From: Halomonas sp.
GTDB taxonomy: Bacteria > Pseudomonadota > Gammaproteobacteria > Pseudomonadales > Halomonadaceae
NCBI RefSeq assembly: GCF_017983445.1
Contig: NZ_JAGOBJ010000008.1
Location: 224,388 to 288,387 of the forward strand
Reading direction: 5' to 3'
Length of the DNA: 64,000 nt
The notes under the pieces were generated by a model. It was not told the DNA's origin, did not search any database, and saw only the letters and a program-made list of their open reading frames with translations. Shown in pieces: positions 3,687-28,971 of this stretch. Position 1 is the first letter of the stretch, and every line of letters begins with the position of its first letter. The translations under genes and the position numbers were made by a program.

Positions 3687-3710
3687 AGGCGGCTACCTGA
3701 GTAGCCGCCT
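3687..3710 (-). terminator. Rho-independent terminator after the porin gene
   Basis: A perfect 10-bp stem (AGGCGGCTAC / GTAGCCGCCT) with a 4-base loop. On the minus strand it is followed by TTTTGG. It lies about 50 bp beyond the porin stop and would close the 3.7-13 kb unidirectional locus. Confidence 0.75.
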
Positions 3711-3758
3711 GGGGCGTGCTTGGTAAGAAGCTTTGTCGGGATATTTTAGTTCAGCGCT

Positions 3759-4799
3759 TTAAAACTTCACTTCGACACCAATACCGTACAGGTCATCACG
3801 GGGGCGATCATCAAGACGTACGCGATCGACATTGTATTCGGCGTAGAGTTTGGCGCGCGGCATCACCTGATAGGAAACTCCGAAGACGTATTCATCTACG
3901 CGATTGCCTTCGTCCGCTAGGTTATCCTGGCCTTTTTCGTTGTTATAGCCTGCCATTAATAGAAAATCGCCTAGTTGATAAGCGCCGGCCAGTTCGTAGA
4001 AGTGGGTTGAGAATTCCTCGTTATCAGCGGCCTGCATGGATTTATAGCCGTTGATGGCACCCACGTAAAGAGAGTTGTAACGGTAGCCTGCGCCAAACCC
4101 CCAGCTGGTCATGTCACCAAGCATGGCCGTCGCGCCTTGAAATCTTTGGCGTTCGTAAGCGGTCACCAAATCCAGGCCGATATCGGTACTGTAACGAGCG
4201 GAAAGGCTGTATTGGTAGTTGCGGTCGCCATCGGTGGTTTCACGTGTGCGCCGGTCATCCTCAAATACATAGCTCGCGCGAAGGTCCCAGTTGCCGACAT
4301 CATAGCCAATGGTCAGCTGGTCATCTTTTTTGCTGGCAAAGGGCTTGATGCCATTAATTTTATTGTCGTTGGCAGAAGAGCCAAACAGCTCAAAAATATC
4401 GGTAACGTCAATCAACTGACTGGTTGAGCTTTTGGTTCGGCCGATTGCCATTTCCAACTGGTCGAGGTAGCGAAAACCCAGCCAGGCATAGCGCACATCA
4501 AGGCTATCGGTTTTAGCATCGTTTTCCTCTTCGGCGTTCATCTGCCACTCTAACTTACCCAGCAGATCTATTTCATCTGAGAAGCGATAGCGAAACTGGG
4601 TGCCCAGGCGGGCTTTACCATCACCACCAAAGTTCAAGCGCTTGGTCTTATCCTGCTTGTCGTATTTAAATGCGCCCGCCTCATACTGCACCTTACCGGT
4701 AAGGTCGACTCTAAGATCGTCTGCTTTATAGACAGTCGCCGCTTGAGCCGTTTGCATAGCAACGATAGAAACGGCGGTAAATACTAATAAATTCTTCAT
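3759..4799 (-). CDS. Outer-membrane porin (OmpC/PhoE-like general porin family)
   Basis: A 346-residue Gram-negative porin. The signal peptide MKNLLVFTAVSIVAMQTAQA is followed by a mature protein made of alternating amphipathic strands. It has many acidic residues, GRTKSSTSQL near the centre as in the constriction-loop region of trimeric porins, and a terminal Phe (GVEVKF) for BAM recognition. It lets small hydrophilic solutes cross the outer membrane. Its place at the end of the phosphatase/ABC transporter locus, in the same direction and 116 bp after the histidine phosphatase, suggests it may be the entry pore for that system's substrate. A general housekeeping porin is the alternative. Confidence 0.85.
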   Translation of the reverse strand: MKNLLVFTAVSIVAMQTAQAATVYKADDLRVDLTGKVQYEAGAFKYDKQDKTKRLNFGGDGKARLGTQFRYRFSDEIDLLGKLEWQMNAEEENDAKTDSLDVRYAWLGFRYLDQLEMAIGRTKSSTSQLIDVTDIFELFGSSANDNKINGIKPFASKKDDQLTIGYDVGNWDLRASYVFEDDRRTRETTDGDRNYQYSLSARYSTDIGLDLVTAYERQRFQGATAMLGDMTSWGFGAGYRYNSLYVGAINGYKSMQAADNEEFSTHFYELAGAYQLGDFLLMAGYNNEKGQDNLADEGNRVDEYVFGVSYQVMPRAKLYAEYNVDRVRLDDRPRDDLYGIGVEVKF

Positions 4800-4840
4800 T
4801 TTCCGATCCCTGAATCAAGATTAAGGCAGCAAGAACCCGT

Positions 4841-4864
4841 TCCTTTAATTCGATAATTAAAGGA
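4841..4864. repeat. Perfect 10-bp inverted repeat upstream of the porin gene
   Basis: TCCTTTAATT / AATTAAAGGA separated by CGAT, about 42 bp upstream of the porin ATG and downstream of the histidine phosphatase stop. There is no T-tract, so an operator or an mRNA-stabilising hairpin is as likely as a terminator. Confidence 0.4.
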
Positions 4865-4915
4865 GCTGAAACGTCAGTAGCGTTTTTTAGTTAATTAAGA
4901 TTTTATGCTTGATGA

Positions 4916-6337
4916 TTAAAAGTGGTTTTTTAACAGTTCAACGTTATCTTCAAGTGTGCTGTTTAAAGCAACGCCACTGTTTTCAAGTTTTTCGGTGTAA
5001 TAGTCTTTAATGCTTTCCCAGGAGTAATAAGGGAATGTAGCTGTAGTGATTGGAAAGGCTATTTCCTGCTCATTGCGCAGCATTTTTATCAGGTGATCGC
5101 CATTATTTTCGTAAATAATCCATTGGATATTGGCACCCATAGGCGTTATCTCAGATCCTTTCCATATTTCGGCGACTAGGTCAGGGTTATCTTGGCTTTC
5201 ATTAGCGCCTGCTATATCCAGATAAGAAGAAAGCGGAATAATCGTTTCTGCATGGCCGAAATTGAAGATGCCGCTAAGGTTATTGTCCTGTAATGCATTG
5301 TCAGTTGAGACCAGCAGTTCCTTGACGAGCGGCGCTGCGATGTCTTGCGGAAGGTCGGTGCTGGTTAGCGATGGGCCCTTGGCATAATAGGTTTCCAGTA
5401 TGTCGAGTTTCTCGTACCAGGCCAGCTGATCCTGGGTGAAGTATTGACCAAAATCGAAGGTGCCCTCCTGAGTTATGTTGGAGGCAATAATGTAAAGCTG
5501 ATAAAGGTTATTGGCGGCATCTTCTGGGCTTCTCAGTTTGACTCTGCCTTTTTCATCTTCAAAAGCGAGTGTGCCGTCAGACAACGCTTCGTAGAGCTCC
5601 TCGCCAATAAACTGGCTCATGATGGTTTGGGCGAATTCAGCTGTTTGGGGCTGCTGATCCAGATATGCTTCCAGGACTTCTTGCCATTCACCGCCACTTT
5701 TATAGGCTTTGTACTGAGTGGCCAGATCGTAGGGCCGAAGATACGGATCGCTGCCTTTTGCATACTGCTCGGCGGTAATCGGGGGCGTCTGCTCGCCCAG
5801 CGCTACTTTAAGCCCTTCAAGGAAATGGTCGCGGCTTTGCGGCGCACGGTCTTTATAAGTGGCATGTGCCTCAATAGGGCGTCCGCTTTCAAATACGTCG
5901 GCAAACTGCTTACCCATGCGTTGGCCAATAGCATTAAGCTCTTCACCGCCTGATAAAGACAGCTCACCGTAAACATCTTTCTCCACTTCCATAAGGCGCG
6001 CTATTTGCTGCTGTAACGCTTGGCCAGCATCTGTTAGCTGCTGCTCTTGTTCAGCCAACGCCAGTAGCTCGTTAAGCGTTTTGTCATACTTTGCGCTGGA
6101 AAGATGGCGCGAGCCATGTCGTCCCACGTAATTGATAAATACCGGCTGATAGCCTTCAGGGGCGGGCGTATAGCGGGTGGCGACATAGGGATAGGGTGAC
6201 TTTGTACTGAGGTGCGCATCAATAGCGGCGTCAGGATTAACTTCAGGAGTGTTCTCTGCCAATGCGTTAGAGGATAACAGCCAGGCCGTAGCGGCCAGGG
6301 CGGTAAGGCATAGGGAGCGTGGAGCGAAGGCTTGCAT
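4916..6337 (-). CDS. Periplasmic MINPP/phytase-type histidine phosphatase
   Basis: A 473-residue histidine acid phosphatase (branch 2). The N-terminal 27 residues form a signal peptide ending in SNALA. The catalytic motif is RHGSRH at 73-78, with His74 the expected phosphohistidine. The proton-donor motif near residue 362 is HAE (GHAETIIPL), not the HD of AppA-type phytases. RHGxRH together with HAE is the signature of multiple inositol polyphosphate phosphatases (MINPP). The expected reaction is stepwise dephosphorylation of phytate or other inositol polyphosphates, though other organophosphates remain possible. An AAAGGA lies about 11 bases before the ATG. It sits between the LacI regulator and the porin of the same locus, which supports extracytoplasmic substrate processing. 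Confidence 0.85.
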   Translation of the reverse strand: MQAFAPRSLCLTALAATAWLLSSNALAENTPEVNPDAAIDAHLSTKSPYPYVATRYTPAPEGYQPVFINYVGRHGSRHLSSAKYDKTLNELLALAEQEQQLTDAGQALQQQIARLMEVEKDVYGELSLSGGEELNAIGQRMGKQFADVFESGRPIEAHATYKDRAPQSRDHFLEGLKVALGEQTPPITAEQYAKGSDPYLRPYDLATQYKAYKSGGEWQEVLEAYLDQQPQTAEFAQTIMSQFIGEELYEALSDGTLAFEDEKGRVKLRSPEDAANNLYQLYIIASNITQEGTFDFGQYFTQDQLAWYEKLDILETYYAKGPSLTSTDLPQDIAAPLVKELLVSTDNALQDNNLSGIFNFGHAETIIPLSSYLDIAGANESQDNPDLVAEIWKGSEITPMGANIQWIIYENNGDHLIKMLRNEQEIAFPITTATFPYYSWESIKDYYTEKLENSGVALNSTLEDNVELLKNHF

Positions 6338-6366
6338 GGTTTAGCGTTTCCTTTCTCGGTCATAGG

Positions 6367-6390
6367 GACATGCCGTTAGCGCAACATGTC
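6367..6390. promoter_or_regulatory. Candidate LacI-type operator upstream of the histidine phosphatase
   Basis: Inverted arms GACATG (6367-6372) and CATGTC (6385-6390) flank an imperfectly symmetric core TGCCGTTAGCGCAA, 30-53 bp upstream of the phosphatase ATG and just downstream of the LacI gene. Symmetry and position are seen; assignment to the LacI protein is inference. Confidence 0.35.
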
Positions 6391-6473
6391 AGGTTTTGGG
6401 CACAGGGGTGCCCCGTCGCCATGAAATAAGGCGAATTAAAATGATTACTTGGCTGTTTTAGCGGGAGTAGCCG

Positions 6474-7475
6474 CTAGCCGGGGCGAATGGTGCTACGCCA
6501 TACGGGCCTGGCAGGTAGCTGGATGATCTGGCTGATATCATTTTCATCCGCCAGCTGCTTAGCGATGCAGGCAGCAATTTCCTCAACCGGGTGATGAAAG
6601 GTAGTCAGGTCATAGCTTTGCCAGCTGGCTTGCTCGATATTATCGAAGCCCATCACGCAGAGGTCTTGAGGAATATCGAGCTTGAATGTTTGACGGGCCG
6701 TATCTAAAAATCCGCACGCCAGCAGGTCGGTGGTACAGAGCACGGCATCCGGCCGCTGCGAGCGGGCCAGTAACTGCCGGGCGGCTTCCTGCCCCGTGGC
6801 GTAGTGGGTAGGACCTGCCCGCACAATAGAGATGGGCAAGCCCGCCTCATTGACTGCCTGGCTAAAGGCTTGCTCACGTGCGACAAGGCTTGGGGTGCAG
6901 GCAGTGGATGTTACTAACCCAAAAGAGCGGCACCCCGCTCGATAAAACAGATCAAAGGCTTCCTGCATCGCCGCTTCATGATCAAGCGTAATATGCACTG
7001 GACCGGTAAACTCCTGGCCTCGGTTAACCAGCACCACGCGCAGCCCGCTTTGGATACAGGTTTGAACCAGCGATTCAGCTGGAGCGCCTGACAGAACCAC
7101 GATAGCGCTTGCCCGGTATTTCAGCGCCTGATGTAAAGCGCTTTCTACAGCTTCTTCCTCGCCTGAGGTGTTAATCAGCATGACCGCACGGCCCAACGCC
7201 TGGATATGACGACTAACGGCCTCCAGCAGGCTGGATAAAAACGGCGATGATAGGTGATCACCCACCAGGCACACCGGGCGTGAACTCTCCTGGGAAAGAC
7301 CACGGGCCAAGTGGTTGACGTGATAATTAAGCTCTTTGGCTGCCGCAAGCACCTTTTGGCGCGTTTCCTCGGAAACGCTGGCGCCGTCGGTGAAAGTGCG
7401 CGACACGGCGGAACGTGACACACCGGCCAAACGGGCTACTTCTTCCGCACTAGCAAACTTGCGTGAGCTGCTCAT
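6474..7475 (-). CDS. LacI-family transcriptional regulator
   Basis: A 333-residue regulator. The N-terminal helix-turn-helix (ASAEEVARLAGVSRSAVSRTF) is typical of LacI/PurR proteins and is followed by a hinge (LNYHVNHLARGL) and a periplasmic-binding-protein-like effector domain (from about residue 67, with CTTDLLACGFLDTAR and VMGFDNIE). It probably senses a sugar- or polyol-like ligand in the cytoplasm. Its start overlaps the end of the upstream phosphatase gene by 26 bp, so the regulator is cotranscribed with the genes it probably controls. The absence of carbohydrate kinases nearby and the presence of phosphatases suggest the inducer is a dephosphorylated or phosphorylated polyol. Confidence 0.93.
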   Translation of the reverse strand: MSSSRKFASAEEVARLAGVSRSAVSRTFTDGASVSEETRQKVLAAAKELNYHVNHLARGLSQESSRPVCLVGDHLSSPFLSSLLEAVSRHIQALGRAVMLINTSGEEEAVESALHQALKYRASAIVVLSGAPAESLVQTCIQSGLRVVLVNRGQEFTGPVHITLDHEAAMQEAFDLFYRAGCRSFGLVTSTACTPSLVAREQAFSQAVNEAGLPISIVRAGPTHYATGQEAARQLLARSQRPDAVLCTTDLLACGFLDTARQTFKLDIPQDLCVMGFDNIEQASWQSYDLTTFHHPVEEIAACIAKQLADENDISQIIQLPARPVWRSTIRPG

Positions 7476-8070
7476 CGGGTGCCTCTTGCAACAGCTGTTT
7501 TATTTGTCTGGCCGCAATGCGGGCCGCTTCAAATAGCTCTGGTTTGGGCGTTTCAAACCACTCATCCGGGTGCAGCTGCCGTTCCTTGCGAACATGAGCA
7601 ACCGCGCTTTCAAGCGTAGGGTAACGGTTAGGCAATTCCAGATGTAGAAACAAAGATACCAGCGTGACCGAACGACTACGCCCTCCGCGACAGTGAACCA
7701 GCACGTTGCCTTTTTCACGAAGCGGGTAGGAAGGCTTGTCGGGCATAATCTGATCCAGCGCCGCCCTTAAAATGAAATAGGCAGCCAGCATCTGCTCGTG
7801 GGGGTTGCCCGGGCCGTCAATCATGCCGATCTTGTAATACCGAAACCTGCCTGGGCCCTGAATGAAACCGTTGGGCGTAGGCGGAAGACTGGTATCCACC
7901 AGGTTAATATCCAGGTTGACGGCGCAGTTGATCACCGTGGTAATACCGTTTTCTTCCAACAACGCCGGGCTGCTGGCGGCCTGACTATCGCCAATATAAA
8001 GTGCCACGTTACGCCCCGGCAGGCACGGTTCGATCAGGCTCATGGGAGGGCGCGGATAGTGTTTTGTCAT
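7450..8070 (-). CDS. Dual-specificity-type protein phosphatase family enzyme
   Basis: A 206-residue cytoplasmic phosphatase of the cysteine-dependent DSP/PTP superfamily. The P-loop is HCRGGRSRS at 126-134, a CX5R motif with Cys127 nucleophile and Arg133, and Asp85 in GMIDGPG is a likely general acid. The family acts on phosphoproteins but also on phosphoinositides and small phosphate esters, and PTP-like enzymes include phytases. Its start overlaps the inositol-monophosphatase stop in an ATGA (8067-8070), and its end overlaps the LacI gene, so all three are translationally coupled. No signal peptide is seen. In this setting a small-molecule substrate delivered by the adjacent ABC transporter is more likely than a phosphoprotein. 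Confidence 0.85.
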   Translation of the reverse strand: MTKHYPRPPMSLIEPCLPGRNVALYIGDSQAASSPALLEENGITTVINCAVNLDINLVDTSLPPTPNGFIQGPGRFRYYKIGMIDGPGNPHEQMLAAYFILRAALDQIMPDKPSYPLREKGNVLVHCRGGRSRSVTLVSLFLHLELPNRYPTLESAVAHVRKERQLHPDEWFETPKPELFEAARIAARQIKQLLQEAPDEQLTQVC

Positions 8071-8891
8071 GCGATTTCAAGCTCTTCAAGTTGGCTGTAA
8101 TGAGTAAGTGCGTCAGCGATAAGTGGTGTTGCTGCGAGTACTGCGCCACCGTGCTTTAGCGTGCCGGGCAGGGAAAGATAGGGGCGGGTTACACCGCCGG
8201 CTTCGCTGACTAGTAAAAGACCGGCCAAACTGTCCCACGGGTTCATGTGGTGCTCGAGGTAGCCGTCGATTCGGCCTTCAGCCACCCAGGCCAATGCAAG
8301 CGCCCCCGACGCCCCGCGGCGAATATTGGCGCCATGGGATAACAGGGCGGCTTGGGCGTTCAGGTACGTTTGCAGCGCCGTACGTGTGGACCAGCCCATT
8401 TCAATTGTGGCGGTCGTGAAACTATCGGTGGCGGCTACCTGAATCGGCTGGGCGTTTTTATAGGCGCCCTTGCCGCGTTGGGTGAAATAGAGCTCCTCGG
8501 TACACGGATTAAAAATGGCGCCCAGCTGGGTTTTACCGCCGTCGATAAAAGCGATGCAGACACAGAAGTGGGGGATGCCCCTGGCATAGTTGGCGGTGCC
8601 ATCAATCGGGTCGACGACCCAGATGGCATTACCATTCATTTGCCCGCCGCTTTCCTCACCGCTACTTTCCTCGCCCACAAAGGCATCGCTGGGAAAGCGC
8701 TGTTGAATGGCAACTCTGATCTCCTGCTCGATGAAGGTATCAGCCTCGGTCAGGAAATCCTGGTGGCCCTTGAGCGTGTAAAGCCCTGGCTTGCGTGTTT
8801 CGAAAAGATGGCGTGCTTTCAGGCCAGTGCGGTGAATCAGATCCTTGAGAAATTCAGCGCGGACTTCCAGCTCATGGGGCAGAATCGGCAT
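8067..8891 (-). CDS. Inositol monophosphatase family protein
   Basis: A 274-residue Mg2+-dependent phosphatase of the IMPase/FBPase/CysQ superfamily. The metal-binding motifs are in order: GEES (73-76), DPIDGTAN (94-101) and NPWDSLAG with Asp220. It hydrolyses phosphomonoesters such as inositol-1-phosphate, histidinol phosphate or sugar phosphates; the family cannot be resolved to one substrate by eye. The ATG at 8891 has an AGGA five bases upstream; a TTG at 8912 is a poorer start. It lies 42 bp after the binding-protein gene and overlaps the next phosphatase by 4 bp. This places it as a cytoplasmic dephosphorylation step for an imported phosphate ester. Confidence 0.9.
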   Translation of the reverse strand: MPILPHELEVRAEFLKDLIHRTGLKARHLFETRKPGLYTLKGHQDFLTEADTFIEQEIRVAIQQRFPSDAFVGEESSGEESGGQMNGNAIWVVDPIDGTANYARGIPHFCVCIAFIDGGKTQLGAIFNPCTEELYFTQRGKGAYKNAQPIQVAATDSFTTATIEMGWSTRTALQTYLNAQAALLSHGANIRRGASGALALAWVAEGRIDGYLEHHMNPWDSLAGLLLVSEAGGVTRPYLSLPGTLKHGGAVLAATPLIADALTHYSQLEELEIA

Positions 8892-8933
8892 GTCTATCCT
8901 TTTATTTTGCAACGTGAACGTTGGGTTTTGTTG

Positions 8934-10037
8934 TTAACGGCGGTAGTTCAACATCCACAGGTCCTGCCAATCCTGGCGGTTTTCCCAGTCATCAATGGCC
9001 GTGCGGGGCGAGTAATCAAATAGCTGAGCCTTGAGGGCGCCAATGCCGGAAGGCTCTGTCTCGGGCAGTGATATATCCGAGCGGGTGGAAATCTTGCCAT
9101 CCTGGGCTTGCGGCGCGATGCCTTCTTCGGTCAGCAGGTAATGCAAAAAAAGCTTGGCGGCGTTAGGGCTTTGGGTACCGCTGGCTATAAGGCCGATGGA
9201 GGGATAGGTCCAGCCAATCCATGGGTCCAGTCCTTCGCAAATACCCAGTTTCATGCCGTCAGCATTATCACGAAACTTGGCGGTACTGGTTAAGCCGAGA
9301 AAGCTGTCCTGCTGATCCGGGGAGGCAACGGCTTCGGCTGCATTGGAATCTGAATCGGTTAATAGCGGCGCGTTGTTTGCCAGCGCTTTCACCCAGGCGG
9401 CGGTAGCGCTCTCTTCAGTATCGGGTAATGGGTGGCCGTAGCGCGCCTCAAAGGCCGCTGCCATCGCTTCATCCCCGTGCTGGGTCATCTGGTTAAACCA
9501 GTCCACGTAGGAAGGCTTGCCCAGCGGATCCTGCAACGCTACCCGGCGTTCCCACTCGGGTTCGGTCAATTCCCAGATATTATTGATCGGGCAGTGATCG
9601 TGGAGTGCGGTGTTGTAGGTCCAGACATTGGGAGCCATCACAATGGCTAATGGATCGCGGTAGCGCTCATCCACCCGGTCGGCTAGCTCAGCAGGGAACC
9701 AGTTAACCGTAAAGCCTGTGTCCAGAAGCTGGGCAACGGCTGCCGGGGCGTCTGCCAGAATGGCTACATCGGTTTGAATATTATTGGCTTGCGCCTCGCG
9801 GATGATCCTTTCCAGGGTATGGGGCGCTTTTGATTTAACCCCTTCGGCCTGAACGCCATACTGTGCGGAAAAATTGGCTGCCTGTTCAACAATCTTGCCG
9901 GTTGAATCGTAGATCGTAATGCCTGGTTCCTGCCGGGCAGCTGCAATTAAAGCATCCAGCTCAGTGGATTCGTTAGCCCAGGCCAAGGGAGCTGAGGCCA
10001 GGCTAATGGCAACGGTAAGTCGTGATAAAAGACGCAT
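8934..10037 (-). CDS. Periplasmic substrate-binding protein, AfuA/Fbp-like
   Basis: A 367-residue periplasmic binding protein with a 21-residue signal peptide ending in PLAWA. The fold family is that of the Fbp/AfuA/aminoethylphosphonate binding proteins (DPLGKPSYVDW, then GWTYPSIGLIASGTQSPNAAKLF). The adjacent paired tyrosines that bind iron in FbpA are not seen, which argues against a ferric transporter. AfuA of Actinobacillus, once annotated as iron-binding, takes hexose phosphates; a phosphorylated ligand fits the two downstream phosphatase genes. AGGG lies six bases before the ATG, and the gene is 11 bp after the ATPase gene. The ligand is inferred. Confidence 0.85.
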   Translation of the reverse strand: MRLLSRLTVAISLASAPLAWANESTELDALIAAARQEPGITIYDSTGKIVEQAANFSAQYGVQAEGVKSKAPHTLERIIREAQANNIQTDVAILADAPAAVAQLLDTGFTVNWFPAELADRVDERYRDPLAIVMAPNVWTYNTALHDHCPINNIWELTEPEWERRVALQDPLGKPSYVDWFNQMTQHGDEAMAAAFEARYGHPLPDTEESATAAWVKALANNAPLLTDSDSNAAEAVASPDQQDSFLGLTSTAKFRDNADGMKLGICEGLDPWIGWTYPSIGLIASGTQSPNAAKLFLHYLLTEEGIAPQAQDGKISTRSDISLPETEPSGIGALKAQLFDYSPRTAIDDWENRQDWQDLWMLNYRR

Positions 10038-10048
10038 AACAAACCCTT

Positions 10049-11161
10049 TTAAACGGCGTGCATATAAGTGGTGGTAGAGACGTTGTTACGGATTATTCCC
10101 GCCTGGCCATAACGGGTGTTTTCCAGGCGATGGCCATCGGTATCAAATAGGTGCAAATGCTCAGGCTGTATCTGGCAAAAGGTGTGCTCGCCCGCCTGTA
10201 CCTGAGGCCTGATCTGGGTAGAAAGCTGCAAGCACTGGCCTTCCGTTTCAAGATCCAGAACCCAGCTGCCACCTGTCGGCATGATGCCTTGTACTTTGGC
10301 AGGTAAGGCGTAGGGTGTGGCCGCCTGAGCTAGGTGAATGTCTTCAGGTCGGATGCCGAGCATGTGTGTATCAGGCTGGTTATTGAGACGACTCCCCAGC
10401 ATGGAGTCAGCGGCAATCTGGTTGATCGGCGGGTTGCCAATAAACTCGGCGACAAAGCGGTTGGCGGGGCGTGCATAGATATCATCGGGGCTGCCTACCT
10501 GCTGCAAGTGCCCCTTGCTCATGACGGCGATCGTAGTGGCCAGTGTCATGGCCTCCCACTGGTCGTGGGTGACGAACAGGATGGTGGTATCAAATGCTTG
10601 GTGTAGCCGTTTCAGCTCAGCGCGCATTTCCAGGCGCAGTGAGGCGTCGAGATTGGACAGCGGCTCATCCAGCAGCAGTACTTTGGGCTTTAAGACCATC
10701 ATACGGGCGAGCGCCACGCGCTGCTGCTGGCCGCCTGATAGCTGAGAAGGGTAGCGCTTGGCATAGCCGGCAATGCCCAGTTTATCCATCACTTCGCCGG
10801 TCCGGGTGCGCCGTTCGCGCTCAGAAAGTTTGCGCAGACGCAATCCAAACTCGATATTTTGCTCAACCGTCATGTGGGGCCACAGCGCGTAGCTTTGAAA
10901 CACTAGCCCCAGCCCACGTTTTTCGGGAGACACAAAGCAGCCGTCTGCCGGGGAGTCCATTAGCTGATCGCCGATAAACAGACGCCCCTGGCTCAAGTGC
11001 TCAAGGCCCGCGATCATGCGCAGCATCGTAGTCTTTCCGCAGCCCGAAGGGCCAAGCAGGCACATGAAATCACCGCTTTTGATATGCAGGTCGATATTTT
11101 GCACGGCGGTGGCCTGGCGGCTGTACTGCTTGGATATCGCGTCTAACGTGATGGTCGGCAT
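10049..11161 (-). CDS. ABC transporter ATP-binding protein, AfuC/FbpC-like
   Basis: A 370-residue ATPase of an import ABC transporter. Walker A is GPSGCGKTT (37-45), the signature is LSGGQQQR (141-148), Walker B is VLLLDEP (161-167), and a switch His follows in VTHDQWEA. The C-terminal 130 residues form a TOBE-type regulatory domain, as in Fbp/Pot/Mal-type ATPases. It starts 2 bp after the permease stop and ends 11 bp before the binding-protein gene, so the three form one operon. It energises uptake of the ligand bound by the 8934-10037 protein. Confidence 0.93.
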   Translation of the reverse strand: MPTITLDAISKQYSRQATAVQNIDLHIKSGDFMCLLGPSGCGKTTMLRMIAGLEHLSQGRLFIGDQLMDSPADGCFVSPEKRGLGLVFQSYALWPHMTVEQNIEFGLRLRKLSERERRTRTGEVMDKLGIAGYAKRYPSQLSGGQQQRVALARMMVLKPKVLLLDEPLSNLDASLRLEMRAELKRLHQAFDTTILFVTHDQWEAMTLATTIAVMSKGHLQQVGSPDDIYARPANRFVAEFIGNPPINQIAADSMLGSRLNNQPDTHMLGIRPEDIHLAQAATPYALPAKVQGIMPTGGSWVLDLETEGQCLQLSTQIRPQVQAGEHTFCQIQPEHLHLFDTDGHRLENTRYGQAGIIRNNVSTTTYMHAV

Positions 11162-11163
11162 AA

Positions 11164-12969
11164 TTAGCTCTCCAGACCTTGGGCAAGGCCCGTTTTGGTT
11201 AATTTCTGAGTCAGAATCGTGCCGCCCCAGGCGAGCATGGCAATCATGAGTACAACGGCGTTGGCGGCTTGGGTGTAGTTGTAATCAACCAGGCGCAAAG
11301 AGTAGGTGGTAAGCACTTCGGTAGCTGGCACCGCCAGAATGATGAACAGGCTCACGCCTTTAATTCCCGAGATAAAAGGTAAGACGATACCCACTACCAG
11401 CGCGCCTTTCTGAATAGGCACGATGATGCTCCACATGCGCCGTAGCCACGAAGCGCCTGAAATCTGTGCGGCCTCTTCGGGCTCTTTACCCAGCTGCGTC
11501 ATGGCTGAGATACCTGCCCGTGAAGCAAAGGGCATCTGGTCGGCAATTAGCGCGAGCATCAGAATCATCGACGTTCCATATAGCGCAGGAACAGGGCCGC
11601 GCTGCACGGCAAAAAGGGAAAGCGTGGCGGCTGCAAAGGCAATGCCAGGCACTAGATAAGGCATAAACGTGAGCTGGCGCAGCGAGCTTGCAAGCCAGCG
11701 CCAAGGCGTACGCGTCACCACATAGCCCACCAGCAGGCCGAGTAAACCGGCACATATAGAGGCGGTACCCACAATACGCAGGCTATTCCAGGTGGCGGAC
11801 CAGAACTCAGGGGTTAATAAAATGCCGTTTTTCAAGGCGATCGTATTGAGGTTGGTGCCGATCCAGTAATCCAGGGTGAAGTTATTCAGATGAAAACGCC
11901 CTGGAATACGCATGATGGTGGATAGAAAAAGCGTTAATAGCGGAAGCACGACGCCAATGATAAACAGAGAAGCGGCTAGCAACGTGGCGGGAAGGCGCCA
12001 AACGCCGAGCGGGCGACGACGTTCCATAGCGCCTTTGCCACCCAGGGTGACAAAGCGGCGCGCTTCACGCATTAGGTAAAGATCAATTGTTAACGTGATA
12101 CAGCCCAGCACCATGATGGCCCCCGCCAGTACAGAGGCGACACCCGTCTGGCGCGACGAAATAGCTCTGAACAGCGAGGTGGAGAGGGTGTCGTACTGCA
12201 CCGGCAGGCCGAGAATGTAGGGCACGGCAAACTCGCCCAGCCCATCGGCCAGAATCAGCACCATCGCGGACATCAGCGCAGGTCGCATTAGCGGTAAAAT
12301 GATACGAAAGGCAACGGTTGAACGGCTGGCGCCCAGAATGCGAGCCGAATCTTCAAGCTGGGAATCCAGGCGGCGTAAGGCGTTGCCAAACAGCAGTATG
12401 ACCAGCGGAATATAGTGCAGCGCCAGTATGAAAATCATCGGCACGGGACCATAAGCCAGCCAATCGGGCGAGGAGTAGCCCATTGACTCCAGCCAGCCTG
12501 GTTGGCCACCCATCGACCGGTTCTTGAATAACGTGGTCCAGGCTAGCGCGAACGTCCACGTAGGGAGCATAAACGGCACAATCAATGCAGTAGCAAACCA
12601 GCCTCGGCCCCACAAATTAGTACGACTTAAAAGCCATGCCATGATGCCGCCCACCACCATGGCAATACACATAGCGCCGATGGCCACGCTAAGCGTGTTG
12701 AGTAACGGTTGCCAGAACAGCCGCTTTGAAATAGGTGAGGTAAACACGCGTTCAAGGTAGTAAAACGTGAAGCTGCCCTGTTCTGCGCCAATGCGCGTTG
12801 AGTCGCCAAAGTTAACGTTAACCGCATCCATTAAAATGGAAATAACTGGCGCCAGGATCAGGTAGCTGAATGTGGTTAATAAGCCTATGCCAAGTAGCGT
12901 CGCTGGATTTTTTAGACTGAGCTGTAGTCCCCTTTTACTGGGGAGTGCTGAAGTGATCCACCCAACCAT
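11164..12969 (-). CDS. ABC transporter permease, two fused BPD domains (AfuB/FbpB-like)
   Basis: A 601-residue membrane protein with two binding-protein-dependent permease domains in one chain. Each has about six membrane segments and an EAA-type loop (LEDSARILGASRSTVAFRII in the first half, EEAAQISGASWLRRMWSIIV in the second). This fused architecture is usual for the Fbp/Afu/Sfu class. The ATG at 12969 has GAGGG about eight bases upstream; the frame extends to 13074, but that extension runs into the palindromic promoter region and looks untranslated. It is the first gene of the minus-strand operon that continues through the phosphatases and regulator. Confidence 0.9.
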   Translation of the reverse strand: MVGWITSALPSKRGLQLSLKNPATLLGIGLLTTFSYLILAPVISILMDAVNVNFGDSTRIGAEQGSFTFYYLERVFTSPISKRLFWQPLLNTLSVAIGAMCIAMVVGGIMAWLLSRTNLWGRGWFATALIVPFMLPTWTFALAWTTLFKNRSMGGQPGWLESMGYSSPDWLAYGPVPMIFILALHYIPLVILLFGNALRRLDSQLEDSARILGASRSTVAFRIILPLMRPALMSAMVLILADGLGEFAVPYILGLPVQYDTLSTSLFRAISSRQTGVASVLAGAIMVLGCITLTIDLYLMREARRFVTLGGKGAMERRRPLGVWRLPATLLAASLFIIGVVLPLLTLFLSTIMRIPGRFHLNNFTLDYWIGTNLNTIALKNGILLTPEFWSATWNSLRIVGTASICAGLLGLLVGYVVTRTPWRWLASSLRQLTFMPYLVPGIAFAAATLSLFAVQRGPVPALYGTSMILMLALIADQMPFASRAGISAMTQLGKEPEEAAQISGASWLRRMWSIIVPIQKGALVVGIVLPFISGIKGVSLFIILAVPATEVLTTYSLRLVDYNYTQAANAVVLMIAMLAWGGTILTQKLTKTGLAQGLES

Positions 12970-13298
12970 TGATTTTCCCTCGTTGACACTCTGGATAGCC
13001 GAAAGATCGACCTGATTGAGAGGCATTCTAAAGAGGAAAGATGACAGAACGTTGACATTTGCACATAAGTGCAAAATTCTTAGAACATTAAATTCATGAT
13101 TAATATCAATTGGTTGTGTTTTTTGTCATATTTTATAAGAAAAAATTAATGAAGCTTTTTGCACCTAATTACATACGTAAAATTCTTTCTCGCCAGTGCT
13201 ATCAACGTTATTGTCGGTAAGCTCAACCGCTGTTACTCACAACGGGTAATCAGGGAATAGGCTACGCTAAAGAGCTATTCATTTTAAAAGGCGGCCAT
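12970..13298. promoter_or_regulatory. Divergent promoter region with TTTGCAC operator palindrome
   Basis: This AT-rich stretch separates the minus-strand ABC operon from the plus-strand UbiB-like gene. It holds a perfect inverted repeat TTTGCACATAAGTGCAAA at 13058-13075, about 90 bp upstream of the permease start. A second copy of the half-site TTTGCAC lies exactly 100 bp away at 13158-13164. It is a good candidate operator for the transporter operon; the binding protein is unknown and could be the LacI regulator of the locus. Confidence 0.5.
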
Positions 13299-21375: not shown

Positions 21376-23100
21376 TTAGTTTACGCTGGCTTTTTCAAGC
21401 AGGAAATCGACAATATGCTCAGCAGGTACCATCGTAGCTTCACTGTCGCGACGGCCTTTATACTCAAGCTCGCCGTTATCCAAACTACGATCACCAATCA
21501 CCAGGCGATGCGGCACGCCCATCAGCTCCAGGTCGGCAAATTTGACGCCGGGACGCGTATCGCGGTCATCCAGTAGTACGTCCAGCCCAGCGGTGGTTAA
21601 CGCTTGGTAGAGCCGCTCTGATTCTTCGCGCACGCGCTGCGACTTATGTGCATTCATGGGCACAAGCGCTACCTGGAAGGGAGCAATCGCATTGGGCCAG
21701 GTAATGCCTGCGTCGTCGTGGTTCTGCTCAATAGCAGCGGCCACTACGCGGGTAATACCAATGCCGTAGCAACCCATCCACGGATGGCTGGTCTTGCCGT
21801 TATCGCCCAGCACGCTTGCATTCATGGCCTCAGAATATTTCTGACCCAGCTGAAATACATGGCCTACCTCGATACCGCGCTTGATTGAAAGCGTGCCTTT
21901 GCCATCCGGTGACGGGTCGCCTTCCACCACCTTGCGTAAATCAGCGACCTGAGGCAGGGCAACGTCTCGCTCCCAGTTAATGCCGAAGTAATGCTTGCCA
22001 TCAATATTGGCACCTGCGCCGAAGTCACTCATCAAGGCAACGCTGCGATCAATGATGATTGGCATTTCAAGACCGATAGGACCTAGAGAGCCAGGGCCTG
22101 CGCCTACGGCAGCGCGAATTTCTTCTTCGCTGGCCATGGTGAGCGGCGTTGCTACCTGGGGAAGGTTTTCGGCCTTCACTTCGTTCAGCTCGTGGTCGCC
22201 GCGCACCAGCAGCGTAATCAAGCCGCCTTCGGTGGCGTGAACCATCAGCGTTTTCACGGTTTTCTCGATGGGCAGCTTGAACTGTTCAACCAGGGCCGCG
22301 ATGGTTTTAGCATTCGGCGTATCCACTACGCGCATTTCTTCACCAGGTGCTGCGCGCTGTACGTCGCTACCGACAGGTGCCGGTAGGGCTTCGGCTTTTT
22401 CCATATTCGCGGCGTAGTCGGATTCATTGGAGAACACGATATCGTCTTCGCCGGAACTAGCGAGAACATGGAATTCATGGGAACCGGTGCCGCCGATAGA
22501 ACCGTTATCTGCAATCACCGGCCGGAAATCCAAGCCCAAGCGGGTAAATATCCGCGTGTAGGCGTCGTACATGCTCTGGTACGTTTCTTTAAGTGATGCT
22601 TCATCCAGGTGGAAGGAGTAGGCATCTTTCATGATGAACTCACGCGAGCGCATTACCCCAAAACGCGGACGAATTTCGTCACGGAATTTGGTCTGGATTT
22701 GGTAGAAGTTAACCGGCAACTGCTTGTAGCTTGCGATCTCTTTGCGCACCAGGTCCGTGATTACTTCTTCATGAGTCGGCCCCACGCAGTAGTCGCGCTC
22801 GTGGCGGTCTTTGACACGCAAAAGCTCTGGACCGTACTGCTCCCAGCGGCCGGATTCCTGCCATAATTCGGCCGGCTGAACGGCGGGCATCAATACTTCC
22901 TGTGCACCAGCACGGTTCATCTCTTCGCGCACAATGGCTTCTACTTTCCGCAGCGTACGTAGGCCTAAAGGCAGCCACGTATATAAGCCCGACGTGAGGC
23001 GACGGATCATCCCAGCACGCAACATTAACTGGTGGCTAATGACTTCGGCGTCGGCCGGAGTTTCTTTTAACGTAGCGATCAATAATTGGCTGGCGCGCAT
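21376..23100 (-). CDS. proS: Prolyl-tRNA synthetase (bacterial type)
   Basis: A 574-residue class II aminoacyl-tRNA synthetase, the length of E. coli ProS (572). Motif 1 and 2 regions ([42 protein letters not shown]) and motif 3 ([13 protein letters not shown]) are present. The INS/YbaK-type editing domain lies between motifs 2 and 3 (about residues 225-400), and the anticodon-binding domain is C-terminal. It charges tRNA-Pro and edits Ala-tRNA-Pro. AAGGA lies 11 bases before the ATG. It is an isolated essential gene. Confidence 0.97.
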
Positions 23101-23326
23101 GTGCGGTAAAATTCCTTAATGTTAAAAAAGCCGCTGGCTTAGCGTTGAATGCCAGCATTGTACGTCTTAGCGGTTAAAGCGGCAAAATCAACCAGTAGTC
23201 ATAGGCGCTGTGCACCGGAAAGTTTGTGCTAATATGGCCGTGATTTTGCGAGCGTTAACGAGCATTATTTCAATAATTCAGCCTCAATGCCCGCTATCGT
23301 TTCTGTTTATTAATGAGGGAACCTTC

Positions 23327-23761
23327 ATGCAGCAAACTGTACGCCGTTGGTTAACGGGGGTCGTTGTAGGCGCCTCCATCATAACGCTGAGCGGTTGCGG
23401 TACTATGTTTCATCCTGAGCGAAAAGGTCAGTTAAGCGGCCAGATCGACCCAGTTATCGCGGTTGCCAACGGTGTGGGCCTTCTATTTTTTATCGTGCCG
23501 GGCGTTATTGCCTACGCGGTCGATTTTTCAAATGGCACTATTTATCTGCCAGGTAATAACAGCGCATCTGTCGATGTTCTGCACCTGGATGATACGTTGA
23601 ATGTGGCGTCACTTGAAAAGCTGCTGTCTGATAAAGCGGGCAAGCCGGTGAGTTTAAAAAGCGAGCTGGTGATGATTGAAGAAGTGGACAACCTGGAAGA
23701 AGCGCTCGCCATGGTGCGGATGTCAGGCGTAATGGACGAAGAGCGCTTGGCAACCATGTAA
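23327..23761 (+). CDS. Small lipoprotein, YceK/YidQ-like
   Basis: A 144-residue lipoprotein. The signal peptide ends in a lipobox LSGC, then GTMFHPERKGQ. A hydrophobic segment (GVGLLFFIVPGVIAYAVDFSN) is followed by TIYLP, a pattern seen in the YceK/YidQ family of short lipoproteins of unknown role. The C-terminal third is charged. The ATG at 23327 is preceded by GAGGG; the frame runs back to 23210 without a signal. Databases sometimes call relatives polyribonucleotide nucleotidyltransferase, which the sequence does not support. It is divergent from proS and followed by a terminator. Confidence 0.7.
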   Translation: MQQTVRRWLTGVVVGASIITLSGCGTMFHPERKGQLSGQIDPVIAVANGVGLLFFIVPGVIAYAVDFSNGTIYLPGNNSASVDVLHLDDTLNVASLEKLLSDKAGKPVSLKSELVMIEEVDNLEEALAMVRMSGVMDEERLATM

Positions 23762-23788
23762 ATGGCCCAAAAGGCTGCGTTACTGCAC

Positions 23789-23822
23789 AAAACCCCAGAG
23801 GCGCTTACGCGTATGGGGTTTT
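23789..23822. terminator. Bidirectional terminator
   Basis: AAAACCCCA / TGGGGTTTT stem with a 16-base loop, between the convergent lipoprotein and benE genes. The A/T flanks serve both strands. Confidence 0.7.
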
Positions 23823-23839
23823 GTCGTTTTATGGGCTGG

Positions 23840-25051
23840 CTATTTGGCAGCGGTAAGTTTCAGGGTAATCAATCCTGCCACCAAGCCCCAGAAAGGGCCG
23901 CCAATGCCAAGCAGCGTAATGCCAGAACCCGTTAGCAAAAAGGTGACAATGGCCGCATCGCGATGACGGCTATCGGTAAAGGCGCTTGCCAAACCTCCGG
24001 CAAGCGTACCCAATAGCGCAATGCCTGCCAGGGCAATCACCAGCACGCTGGGGAGCGCATTAAAAACTCCGGTCACCGTAGCACCGAAAATCCCCATGAT
24101 GGTATAAAAAACGCCAGCAGCCATACCGGCCGTATAGCGGCGTCGTGGGTCGGCATGGGCATCTGGCCCCATACATACTGCAGCGCTGATGGCGGCCATA
24201 TTGAGGGCAAAACCACCAAAGGGCGCCAGAAGCAGAGAGGCTCCACCGGTCCAGCTGATCAGCGGTGAGCTGTTAGCTTGATAGCCCGCAGCCCGTAATA
24301 CCGCCATGCCAGGCAGATTCTGCGTTGCCATGGTGATAACAAAAAGTGGAATGCCCACGCCGATCAGTGTGGCAATTGAAAACTCAGGCGTAATAAACAC
24401 AGGCGTAGTGGGGGACAGCGGAATACCCTGCAAATTGATCTGGCCCTGTAGTACCGCAACCGCTATGCCGGTTAACAGCACGCCGGGCACCGCCAGGGTT
24501 GGCCAAAGGCGCCGACCCATTACCCAGGCAGCCAGCATCACCAGCGGCATTAGCCACTGATTTTGCATCACGCCAAACAGCTCAAGCCCAAAGCGCAGCA
24601 AAATACCGGCTAGCATCGCTGCCGCAATCGCGCTTGGGATGTAGCGCATCAAGCGCTCAAAAAGGCCGGTTACCCCGCATAGGGTGATTAATAGTGCCGA
24701 GAAAAGAAAAGCCCCGATAGCTTCTTCAAGCGGAATGCCCGGCAGGCTGGTCGCCAGAAAAGCCGCCCCCGGTGTAGACCAGGCGGTAAGTAGCGGCATG
24801 CGATAACGCAATGAAAGGCCAAACGATGTAAACCCCATGCCAATACCCAATGCCCAAAGCCAAGAACTGATTTGCGCGGCAGAGGCGCCGCTGGCTTCAG
24901 CTGCCTGAAAGATAATCGCGGCAGAGCTTGTATAGCCAATTGTAACCGCGACAAATCCTGCGGTTACGGTTGATAGGCTGACATCTTTCCAGAAGGCGGG
25001 CCGTTTGGCAGGCGGCTGGGCCTGCTCTAAAGCATCATGATTGGCCGCCAT
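23840..25051 (-). CDS. benE: BenE-family benzoate/H+ symporter-like permease
   Basis: A 403-residue membrane protein with about 12 segments. Family features are TAGFVAVTIGYTSSAAI in the first helix, the central LLTAWSTPGAAFLATSL, and the PFGGFALNMAAISAAVCMGPDAH segment. Characterised BenE proteins import benzoate by proton symport; no ben or cat genes are here, so the true substrate may be another carboxylate or a nucleobase-like compound. The ATG at 25051 has GGAGG eight bases upstream; a TTG at 25066 is rejected. It is divergent from an XRE-cupin regulator, with two near-identical palindromes between them. Confidence 0.85.
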   Translation of the reverse strand: MAANHDALEQAQPPAKRPAFWKDVSLSTVTAGFVAVTIGYTSSAAIIFQAAEASGASAAQISSWLWALGIGMGFTSFGLSLRYRMPLLTAWSTPGAAFLATSLPGIPLEEAIGAFLFSALLITLCGVTGLFERLMRYIPSAIAAAMLAGILLRFGLELFGVMQNQWLMPLVMLAAWVMGRRLWPTLAVPGVLLTGIAVAVLQGQINLQGIPLSPTTPVFITPEFSIATLIGVGIPLFVITMATQNLPGMAVLRAAGYQANSSPLISWTGGASLLLAPFGGFALNMAAISAAVCMGPDAHADPRRRYTAGMAAGVFYTIMGIFGATVTGVFNALPSVLVIALAGIALLGTLAGGLASAFTDSRHRDAAIVTFLLTGSGITLLGIGGPFWGLVAGLITLKLTAAK

Positions 25052-25110
25052 ACTGCGCTCCTCCAAGGTGACTGGATGTTTATCAATTAATTACGATGGT
25101 TAAATTGTTC

Positions 25111-25162
25111 TGTGCGCCATAACGCACAAATGCCACATTATCATTGTGCGCTATAACGCACA
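25111..25162. promoter_or_regulatory. Twin operator palindromes between benE and the XRE-cupin regulator
   Basis: TGTGCGCCATAACGCACA (25111-25128) and TGTGCGCTATAACGCACA (25145-25162) differ at one position and are 34 bp apart start to start. Each is an inverted repeat TGTGCG-N6-CGCACA, lying 60-112 bp upstream of benE. The divergent XRE-cupin protein is the obvious candidate binder. No third copy was found in the rest of the 290-bp gap. Confidence 0.7.
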
Positions 25163-25341
25163 ATCGGCTTAAAGATTTGGATTAAAATAGATCCTGAAGC
25201 TTTATAAACGCTGAAGTTTGCCCTTAAGCGCTGGATGCATAAACGAGCAAACATTCAAAAAGCTCAGCGATGGCCCGAGTAAGCTGCCTGTTTTAAAGGG
25301 GGATTAGATAGGTAAAATAGCCAAGCCTTGAGGAGATAATA

Positions 25342-25929
25342 ATGCCTACCCAGCCCCCCGCTATTGCTGAGCACGTTGCCAGTACCGTTAAACGACTGCG
25401 TAAAGAGCGTGACTGGAGCCTGGATCGTGCTGCCGGTGAAACCGGAGTAAGTAAAGCGATGCTCGGACAAATCGAGCGCGGTGAATCCAGCCCGACCGTT
25501 TCAACGCTCTGGAAAATAGCCAGTGGCTTTCGGGTGTCTTTTTCGACCCTGTTCGATAGCCAAAAACCGGTGCAGGGCGAACTGCGCCGGGATAGCGGGG
25601 AGTCAGTATGGGGGGATGACAGCGCGGGCATGCAGGCACGGCTGATTTTCCCTTACGATCCGCTGCTGGGTTTTGAAATGTTCATGATCGAGCTTGCGCC
25701 CGGCGCGATCAGTGAATCAACGCCGCATGCCGAGGGCGTGGTAGAGCATATCGTAGTCATTGAAGGTGAAATGGAGCTGCGCATTGATGAACGCTGGCAA
25801 ACGCTCAAGGCTGGCGAGGGGCTGCGCTTTTTTGCTGATCGCCCCCACGCGATGCGTAATACCGCAGCAACGCGATTACGCTTTCATGATGTGATTCACT
25901 ATTTACCCGGCGCGGCATCCAACGCTTGA
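25342..25929 (+). CDS. XRE-family regulator with C-terminal cupin domain
   Basis: A 195-residue regulator. The helix-turn-helix (about 12-68: [20 protein letters not shown], then [20 protein letters not shown]) is of the XRE type, and the C-terminal half (about 100-190) is a cupin that would bind a small ligand ([17 protein letters not shown]). AGGAG lies six bases before the ATG. It is divergent from benE and probably controls it through the twin palindromes. It overlaps the convergent nfo gene by 31 bp at their 3' ends. Confidence 0.92.
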
Positions 25930-26759
25930 GCGCGCAACCAGCGGATTTCCTCATCCCAGATTTCAGGCTCGACGGTTTCTAAAATCATGGGGATACCACT
26001 GATACGTGGCTCCTGCATAATAGTTGTAAACGCTGGCAGGCCAATATTGCCTTTTCCCAAGCTGTGATGGCGGTCTACCCGGCTGGCAAAACCGCTTTTC
26101 GCATCGTTTAAATGCATCCCACGAAGATACTCAAACCCTACCACGCTGCCCAGTTCATCCAGAGTGGCTTGCGTTGCTTCGCTGCTGCGTAAATCATATC
26201 CGGCGGCAAACGCATGGCAGGTATCGATACACACGCCGACGCGCGATTTATCATCGACATGCTGAATGATTTCAGCAAGATGCTCAAAGCGCCAGCCAAG
26301 GTTGGTGCCTTGCCCGGCGGTGTTTTCAATCACCGCGGTGACACCTTGGGTCTGGGCAAGGGCTTCGTTTACGGACTCTGCAATGCGCTTTAAACAGTCG
26401 CCTTCACTGATCTTGTTCAAGTGACTGCCGGGGTGGAAATTCAGCAGCGTTAAACCTAACTGCTCGCAGCGCTGCATTTCATCTAAAAAAGCGTTGCGCG
26501 ATTTCTGTAGCCCTTCGGCTTCCGGGTGGCCCAGGTTAATCAGGTAGCTATCGTGGGGCAGAATCTGCCCAGGCTTGAAGCCGTGCTGTTGACAGGCGCC
26601 TTTAAATGCCTCGATGGCTTGCTCCGTCAGCGGCTTGCCCTGCCATTGGCGCTGATTTTTGGTAAATAGCGCAAAGGCGTTTGCGCCGATCTCAACCGCC
26701 CGGTGTACTGCCTGATCTGCACCGCCGGCAGCACTTACATGGGCTCCTACATATTTCAT
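25899..26759 (-). CDS. nfo: Endonuclease IV (AP endonuclease)
   Basis: A 286-residue zinc-dependent AP endonuclease of base-excision repair, the same size as E. coli Nfo (285). It begins [13 protein letters not shown] with the usual metal-ligand His. [32 protein letters not shown] and HLNDAK, in that order, are the family's metal-binding motifs, ending with ETVEP. AAGGA lies six bases before the ATG. It is followed by ugpQ upstream on the same strand, 9 bp apart. Confidence 0.96.
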
Positions 26760-26768
26760 TGCTATTCC

Positions 26769-27539: not shown

Positions 27540-27718
27540 CGTTCGTCCAGAAGCGTTACCGGTTAAATTGGTCTGAGTTTAGCATGAGCCTATGACACCG
27601 GCGTGTCACTCAAGCGCGGTCGATGCGAGTAAGCTCAAGGCATTGCTTGATTTCTGCCGCGTGACGCGGTTGGATAACAGCACCTAGTGGTGCCAATAAT
27701 TAACAAGGAGTTTTGTTC

Positions 27719-28696: not shown

Positions 28697-28714
28697 AAAA
28701 ACCGCACATCGCTC

Positions 28715-28745
28715 AAAAGCCGCCGTTCATTCTGGCGGCTTTTTT
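28715..28745 (+). terminator. Rho-independent terminator after qorA
   Basis: Stem AAAAGCCGCC / GGCGGCTTTT with a 9-base loop, continuing into T residues. Confidence 0.85.
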
Positions 28746-28971
28746 ATTGATGAATGAAGCGCAGGAAAAATATGGGGTCTCTAGGTTGGGTAGATAGAGC
28801 CTCTATTTTATTTTTCTAGTCATCTGCAGGGCCTATACGGTTGTATAAATATCGCCTAATGTGTGAGGGTTATTCGAACCGTTAACTTATATTGCGGCTC
28901 AGCAAAGCAAGCCGATAGGGTAGTGCGATCGCCTTGCTCTTACCCAATGGTGGCACAAGGAGGTGATTAGC

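Follow-up and report, generated by a model that had tools for sequence, protein, structure and literature searches.

A putative phosphate-starvation operon of Vreelandella predicted to import phytate-derived inositol phosphates

We wondered what a bacterium might gain from an ATP-binding cassette (ABC) importer whose genes stand in one row with those for a periplasmic phosphatase, two cytoplasmic phosphatases, a regulator and a porin. Such a locus lies in a 64-kb stretch (64,000 nucleotides of contig NZ_JAGOBJ010000008.1; the window) of the 3.9-Mb genome of a Vreelandella (Halomonas) close to V. zhanjiangensis, the receptor sharing 99% identity with its counterpart in strain DSM 21076. A sequence-only reading of this DNA had proposed that the locus imports and strips a "phosphorylated polyol or sugar". 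Our computational follow-up keeps the phosphorylated substrate and narrows it to inositol phosphates, on account of phytase-like partner enzymes of several lineages and of inositol (iol) genes beside the Pelagibacterium locus. We consider it probable that the locus is a phosphate-starvation operon under PhoB and LacI control which imports inositol phosphates derived from phytate, the ligand being deduced from genomic context. If so, cells would have a dedicated importer for an ester that has lost only part of its phosphate, which would explain how they recover what phytases do not release.

All eight open reading frames (ORFs) are on the minus strand and span positions 12969 to 3759 in ORF coordinates. 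Each product matched a Pfam family over its cut-off: a fused two-domain ABC permease of 601 amino acids (11164..12969; two stretches of BPD_transp_1), an ABC ATPase (10049..11161; ABC_tran and TOBE_2), a periplasmic solute receptor (8934..10037; SBP_bac_11), an inositol-monophosphatase family enzyme (IMPase, 8067..8891; Inositol_P), a dual-specificity-type Cys phosphatase (DSP, 7450..8070; DSPc), a LacI-family regulator (6474..7475; LacI), a periplasmic histidine phosphatase of the multiple inositol polyphosphate phosphatase (MINPP) type (4916..6337; His_Phos_2) and an outer-membrane porin (3759..4799; Porin_4). Coordinates and family matches agree with the gene order claimed earlier, and the claimed spacing was recovered as well: gaps of 2 bp (permease-ATPase), 11 bp (ATPase-receptor) and 42 bp (receptor-IMPase), then overlaps of 4 bp (IMPase/DSP) and 26 bp (DSP/LacI). 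The 42-bp gap counts the IMPase from its likely start, ATG 8891, in place of the TTG 8912 of the ORF list. Wider gaps separate LacI from MINPP (136 bp) and MINPP from the porin (116 bp). A terminator scan of the region found no terminator-like site in these two gaps, and the MINPP and porin genes are, judging by this and by the gap sizes, probably cotranscribed with the ABC genes; terminator-like matches were no commoner in the locus region than in shuffles (13 versus 11.5). Downstream of the porin, a terminator-like hairpin with a 10-bp stem followed by TTTT occupies 3710-3687 on the minus strand. The extent of 3687..13075 given earlier takes in the promoter (13074-13025), because the permease probably starts at ATG 12969, which is preceded by GAGG. 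The alternative start, TTG 13074, falls inside the operator described below, and the ORFs of relatives start at the equivalent of 12969.

To what extent do these genes belong together? We compared 24 distinct loci (L numbers denote loci and G numbers genomes) recruited by the receptor, the permease or, for five of them (L046, L047, L048, L060 and L062), the DSP. Near-duplicates from Vreelandella (L017, L018, L024) and L021, from the same species as L025, were left out of the 24; outside them also stand the orphan receptors L014 and L015, the loci L016, L061 and L063 (receptors 27-31% identical), and L064-L068. For L045 the neighbourhood is limited to its whole contig of 9.6 kb. Permease, ATPase and receptor were present in 24/24 loci, which range from Halomonadaceae through Klebsiella and Vibrio to rhizobia. 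Of these loci 23 have the DSP, 21 the IMPase and 21 a LacI regulator of at least 39% identity, and the DSP was also present in 18 of the 19 loci that it had not recruited. The neighbourhood search proposed with the sequence-only reading found the families recurring together. Shinella L032 lacks DSP, IMPase and LacI; L048 and L062 lack the IMPase and a LacI of that identity. All eight genes stand in identical order in the window and in five further distinct loci of Vreelandella, a conservation that exceeds chance.

Residues E86, E87, D101, D104-G105-T106 and W226-D227 of the IMPase (numbered from the TTG ORF start), which we take to be its catalytic residues, are invariant in 27 aligned rows. 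The protein misses the cut-offs of the SuhB and HisN equivalog models of NCBIfam (138 versus 332 and 142 versus 275 bits). The DSP has an HCxxGxxRS loop (HCRGGRSRS), and its C127, R133 and D85 are invariant in 30 aligned rows, D85 being the putative general acid. By eye, no signal peptide was seen at the N terminus of either enzyme. In Klebsiella pKP121-2 and Erwinia E602 the IMPase (N end) and the DSP (C end) form one protein of 479 or 528 amino acids, a usual sign of two enzymes acting on one route. The DSP model had a predicted local distance difference test (pLDDT) score of 90.1, and its nearest folds, among the matches listed, were VHR and other DUSPs. The Selenomonas PTP-like phytase was absent among the best 50 of 389 fold matches (E<=0.001), those 50 being DUSP-type or similar. 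Such a VHR-like fold, as modelled, neither supports nor excludes inositol phosphate as substrate.

In the other direction, the DSP was found in 4/149 and 10/121 genomes of two families, and in all 14 it lay beside a fused-permease ABC transporter, which was this one in seven, a cousin (36-37%) in two and a sister (25-28%) in five. No DSP was found in phages at E<=1e-10. The two cousin loci (L061:6120-16306 and L063:6169-16561) represent another transporter lineage (permease 36-37%, receptor 27-29%) with the same set of DSP, IMPase, metallophosphoesterase, Na/Pi transporter and LacI. As the enzyme set is kept with a different transporter, the enzymes seem to outlast transporter change. The sister cluster (L064:3349-9992 and L065-L068) combines its fused-permease ABC transporter with a DSP of the same subfamily (37-47%). 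Beside the DSP, where the IMPase would be, L064, L065 and L067 have an ORF resembling a metallo-beta-lactamase (of the three, only that of L064 was scanned for its family), and L064 and L067 have a LacI; this cluster may import a phosphodiester or a cyclic phosphate.

What the substrate might be is suggested by the periplasmic enzyme. The window's histidine phosphatase carries RHGSRH (RHGxRx motif) at residue 73 and HAE at 362, and scored 57.6 bits for PF00328 at a cut-off of 23.6. An HAE proton donor is a hallmark of MINPP. The closest match was BtMINPP (4fdt, E=3.9e-50), so that by sequence the protein appears to be of the MINPP type, with InsP6 hydrolysis as its predicted activity. It was the sole His_Phos_2 match found in the host genome, and its N terminus, like those of receptor and porin, looks signal-peptide-like by eye. 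A branch-2 histidine phosphatase lies near 9/24 distinct loci (six Vreelandella, Vibrio, Klebsiella and G1114) and is phytase-like each time. The Vibrio enzyme is closest to 6rxd/6rxf and 7zgf (5e-70 and 9e-66), the Klebsiella enzyme to the 3-phytase 2wnh (8.5e-82) and that of G1114 to the AppA/Agp models, the cut-offs of which both of the latter two miss. Since these enzymes fall in several lineages, phytase-like enzymes of differing origin appear to have come to adjoin the same transporter. Among the Vreelandella loci (L010, L011, L012, L013 and L019) the MINPP is 61-71% identical to the window's, compared with 85-94% for the permease (98% for L010 over its likely true length). This divergence exceeds that of most other operon genes and suggests that the phytase gene was replaced or exchanged within Vreelandella. 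The porin family also differs by locus: the Klebsiella porin is KdgM, those of Vreelandella and Vibrio are Porin_4. Compared with the window, L010 has a DSP 98%, a LacI 97% and a MINPP only 64% identical.

How might such a locus be regulated? A motif search placed a LacI operator, TTGCACTTATGTGCAA, at 13059..13074 on the minus strand, which the LacI of the locus is predicted to bind. In genome-wide searches the exact sequence TTGCACNNNNGTGCAA occurs once per genome in each of six Vreelandella, always before the permease. An operator exact to WTGCACNNNNGTGCAW, or with one mismatch, also precedes the permease in Klebsiella, Vibrio, Erwinia, Thioclava, Pelagibacterium, Paracoccus, Devosia, G714, G873, G984 and G1139, and S. 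meliloti L025 has one site with one mismatch; none was found near the permease in L020, L031, L032, L046, L048 and L062. These matches arise partly by construction, because the consensus was read from the same loci; independent of this is that the sequence occurs but once per genome. A possible auxiliary operator, ATGTAATTAGGTGCAA (13159..13174, minus strand), lies 100 bp upstream of the main one; it has 8-10/12 matches in the six Vreelandella and was the best site of the 80-bp stretch searched, a ranking without chance control. None of the 18 NCBIfam models matched by the LacI regulator reached its cut-off. Two Vreelandella genomes also encode, away from the transporter, an orphan second receptor that is 53-55% identical (L014:9071-10165, L015:9457-10551). 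About 140-200 bp upstream of each lies a LacI operator with one mismatch, and after it a repeat weakly resembling a PHO box (scores 8 and 9 of 14); the orphans are probably second receptors of the same regulon.

Abutting the LacI operator we found a PHO box, ATGTCAACGTTCTGTCAT (13041..13058, minus strand), that agrees with the consensus at 12/14 positions. It is the best match on either strand of the 64 kb, in which one other site scores 11. The putative -10 element TAGAAT (13025..13030, minus strand) follows 10 bp after it. In class II PhoB promoters some 10 bp separate the box from the -10 element, and the same spacing was found here, PhoB binding itself being predicted. All six aligned Vreelandella share this arrangement: a direct repeat resembling a PHO box stands 0-1 bp past the operator, and TAGAAT comes 10 bp later. 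A good -35 was not found, and the sigma-70 scan did not list TAGAAT. At the fixed offset the PHO scores (of 14) were 12, 12, 10, 10, 12 and 10 in Vreelandella, 12 in Thioclava, 12 in G714 and 11 in Vibrio; a scan of the whole upstream region was moderate for the Vreelandella loci scoring 10. Checked on the host genome, the consensus gave 29 matches at <=2 mismatches, the locus site included, versus 5 for a reversed control; nine of the 29 lie inside a same-strand ORF. Behind the other PHO-like sites we scanned six genes, chosen as ORFs of at least 229 amino acids whose start lies 37-112 bp downstream; two further long ORFs, 187 and 297 bp away, were not among the six. All six were phosphate-starvation genes: PhoB, polyphosphate kinase, GlcN-phosphatidylglycerol synthase and UgpB exceeded the cut-offs, whereas the remaining two proteins, one PstC-like and one PstS-like, stayed below theirs.

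The comparative evidence favours the stepwise handling proposed earlier, in which the substrate enters through the porin, is trimmed in the periplasm, is taken up by the ABC transporter as a lower phosphate ester and is dephosphorylated by two unrelated cytoplasmic phosphatases. At low phosphate, PhoB would activate the promoter, and LacI would leave its operator when substrate or product is present. The porin would admit the anion to the periplasm, where the MINPP-type phytase would strip most of the phosphates. The ABC transporter would then bring in the remaining lower inositol phosphate, perhaps a monophosphate, from which DSP and IMPase would take off the last phosphate(s) to give inorganic phosphate (Pi) and myo-inositol. 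The host would gain phosphorus, and the inositol would probably not be used via the iol route. Phosphorus supply is indeed the likelier role in this host, given the PHO box and a genome without iolD.

The permease stays far below the cut-off of the PhnU2 2-aminoethylphosphonate model (124 versus 593 bits) and the ATPase below that of PhnT2 (324 versus 458 bits), and with both curated NCBIfam cut-offs missed, 2-aminoethylphosphonate transport was rejected. The highest score of the ATPase is with the UgpC model, below the cut-off of that model (355 versus 432 bits). The receptor had been described as AfuA-like without paired Tyr, and its sequence indeed holds no YY, the FbpA-type paired Tyr ligands. 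Its AlphaFold2 model (pLDDT 93.2) has as its nearest 50 PDB folds listed by Foldseek FbpA, FutA, MctA, AfuA, VcA0625 and similar proteins at 13-22% identity. The ligand cannot be read from this structure, as the fold neighbours bind Fe, citrate and glucose 6-phosphate (G6P) alike. Relatives' permeases, where annotated in plasmid records, are named 'iron ABC transporter permease'; iron uptake was considered unlikely, given the missing Tyr pair and the phosphate context.

An importer of hexose or heptose phosphates resembling AfuABC, with accessory phosphatases and no tie to inositol, would accommodate the modelled fold of the receptor, which is near those of AfuA (4r73) and of VcA0625 (8x1a), a G6P receptor. 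AfuA, which shares this fold, is reported to bind hexose and heptose phosphates (PMC4546632). Against this we set a receptor only 19-22% identical to AfuA and VcA0625, adjoining periplasmic phosphatases that are phytase-like, iol genes beside the Pelagibacterium locus and, by reasoning only, imported G6P needing no two phosphatases to serve as carbon. We therefore regard hexose or heptose phosphates as an unlikely ligand.

Inositol phosphates could also serve as a source of carbon, and the loci differ in a way that bears on this. We labelled as short those with one receptor followed by IMPase-DSP-LacI and no Na/Pi gene seen. The labels were set before the permease tree was made; among the loci called expanded are L030 and L060 of Devosia, whose stretches show no Na/Pi gene, and the cousins L061 and L063, which have one receptor each. 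In the tree four rows are unlabelled, and the rows of L061 and L063 hold one stop each, the tblastn span having overrun the gene start. The 13 short-layout loci form one permease clade (support 100/100) in which Thioclava, an alphaproteobacterium, stands among Gammaproteobacteria; the ten loci labelled expanded fall outside it. In expanded core loci the receptors number two or three, and the IMPases and DSPs up to two each. A calcineurin-type phosphoesterase was found in 7/24 loci and a Na/Pi cotransporter with PhoU domains in 6/24, a weak partial match in Shinella L032 (32%) being excluded from the six. Fixed-offset PHO scores were 6-7 in the expanded loci L022, L023, L030 and L060, and the PHO table stands at 12/13 versus 0/4 (p=0.002, with related loci counted as independent).

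The link to inositol is closest in Pelagibacterium lacus, in which iolG, iolCJ and iolD, all over NCBIfam cut-offs, occupy positions 22948-29740 of the contig beside the locus, whose metallophosphoesterase match begins at 30340; the two next frames, outside the model scan, read like iolE and iolB. In G994 the locus ends at 260436, and matches to the iolG, iolCJ, iolE, iolB and iolD models follow 18-24 kb downstream (278344-284781). Altogether iolD was found in 13 genomes with this locus or its cousin, sister-cluster genomes left out. It was present in 4/9 short-layout versus 8/8 expanded-layout genomes, with related loci counted as independent. It was also present in 3/5 sister-cluster genomes and may therefore be common background. 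In Vreelandella iolD is no obligate partner, since only 2/6 locus-bearing genomes carry it.

Could uptake then be a carbon route in Vreelandella too, via a non-iol pathway? LacI control is common in carbon routes, those 2/6 locus-bearing Vreelandella do have iolD, and expanded loci often include a Na/Pi-transporter gene, with iolD in all eight such genomes examined. The host, for its part, lacks iolD (alternative inositol routes were not searched), its PHO box abuts the operator, and no exact operator occurs elsewhere in its genome. We consider this reading improbable, marginally more so than that of hexose phosphates. Least credible is an importer of ferric iron or a metal chelate of the FbpA/MctA type, possibly of metal-phytate with the phosphatases releasing the metal: phytate binds metals, the receptor's best Foldseek matches among those listed are FbpA, FutA and MctA, and the annotation names speak for iron, against which stand the absent Tyr pair, a promoter with a PHO box (the search did not cover Fur boxes) and the Na/Pi-transporter gene of the expanded loci.

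Several observations weigh against import of phytate-derived inositol phosphates under PhoB control. Shinella L032 keeps the transporter near phosphonate genes without either phosphatase, and both the IMPase and the DSP family accept many substrates. A phmmer search of the receptor against PDB gave no match, and the proteins nearest to it in fold have iron, metal-citrate or hexose phosphate as ligands. No histidine phosphatase was seen in the stretch read at 15/24 loci. A His_Phos_2 search was positive in 6/19 genomes and negative in all eight expanded-layout genomes and in G714, G873 and G984; it also missed the MINPP of G192, and other phytase classes were not searched. At the fixed offset Erwinia, G873 and G984 score only 9 and Klebsiella 7, and for all four the whole-upstream scan was unremarkable. 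No separate PHO box was found for the MINPP or the porin gene, the best sites scoring 9 and 7 of 14. Linkage to iol genes was seen in 2/13 genomes having both; in ten of the other eleven, iolD is on another contig or, in G714, more than 1 Mb away. The host and three more of the six locus-bearing Vreelandella lack iolD, which is no commoner with the locus (2/6) than in genus genomes searched and found without it (23/45).

With these points weighed, the short layout would represent a phosphorus version and the expanded layout a carbon version that sheds surplus phosphate. In the alphaproteobacterial expanded loci the same core would then probably be a carbon route with surplus Pi exported. A broader proposal is that both belong to an undescribed class of dedicated inositol-phosphate ABC importers. 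It would comprise a PhoB-driven phosphorus version with a single receptor, in one permease clade common to Gamma- and Alphaproteobacteria, and a carbon version of rhizobia and related bacteria that takes higher inositol phosphates or phytate via 2-3 receptors and up to five cytoplasmic phosphatases, feeds the iol route and exports Pi via the Na/Pi transporter. We offer this only tentatively and would put it at rather below even chances.

The locus is rare and scattered across the phylum. At E<=1e-20 the receptor was found in 6/201 family genomes, all of the window's genus and its own included; one of the six, G190, has it only at 32% identity and in another layout. In evenly drawn samples the permease was found in 1/369 class genomes (E<=1e-150; the window's own) and in 3/398 phylum genomes (E<=1e-120; own included). 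Plasmid records held 97 permease matches, 82 of them at 60-80% identity and 54 in Sinorhizobium; we examined eight of the 97, picked for spread of genera. A megablast search, the only kind made, found no match to the Klebsiella locus in E. coli genomes. If our reading holds, 'iron ABC transporter permease' genes on rhizobial, Klebsiella and Vibrio plasmids gain a function, and S. meliloti 1021, with the locus on pSymB, is a tractable organism for a test.

How does the locus compare with described systems? AfuABC of Actinobacillus and Citrobacter, once predicted to be an iron transporter (PMC4546632), has a receptor of the same fold group and would share with our locus the import of a phosphorylated ring polyol by an ABC transporter. 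The receptors are 19% identical, however, and the locus adds a porin, a periplasmic phytase, two cytoplasmic phosphatases, and a LacI operator with a PHO box. With UgpBAEC it has in common predicted Pho-controlled uptake of a phosphate ester, the best ATPase match (UgpC) and a PHO-like site, found before the host's ugpB; UgpB in contrast is SBP_bac_8/SBP_bac_1 and the locus receptor SBP_bac_11, and the locus has a fused permease and operon phosphatases. The fused permease is of the type seen in PhnU2, and PhnSTUV and PhnU2-PhnT2 likewise serve phosphorus acquisition, but their cut-offs were missed and the locus operon lacks phosphonate genes. In Mitsuokella jalaludinii a periplasmic phytase starts the route and inositol uptake follows, and the text describing it does not contain the term 'ABC transporter' (PMC7618129); our locus is proposed to finish inside via two phosphatases. 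The promoter with predicted LacI and PhoB sites would also contrast with three Pseudomonas strains, for which no evidence of phytases under PhoBR was reported (PMC5082522). Among the matches listed from the open-access literature searched, none described a bacterial inositol-phosphate ABC importer, most subscription journals lying outside that literature. The earlier claim that no system with this gene set has been described held within the same literature: the parts are known, and their combination was not found described.

Another ABC transporter (L124:6904-11283, L022:1-3951, L128:6271-10809), whose permease measures about 734-764 amino acids and which has its own receptor, recurs near the locus in Pelagibacterium and G994, and in G1149 away from the locus, beside a LacI with an exact operator. 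Finally, positions 3-926 of the window encode, on the minus strand, a formate-dehydrogenase-like protein. Its ORF is broken near 330 by an in-frame TGA within NQARV-U-HGPT, which we take to be the selenocysteine site of the family.

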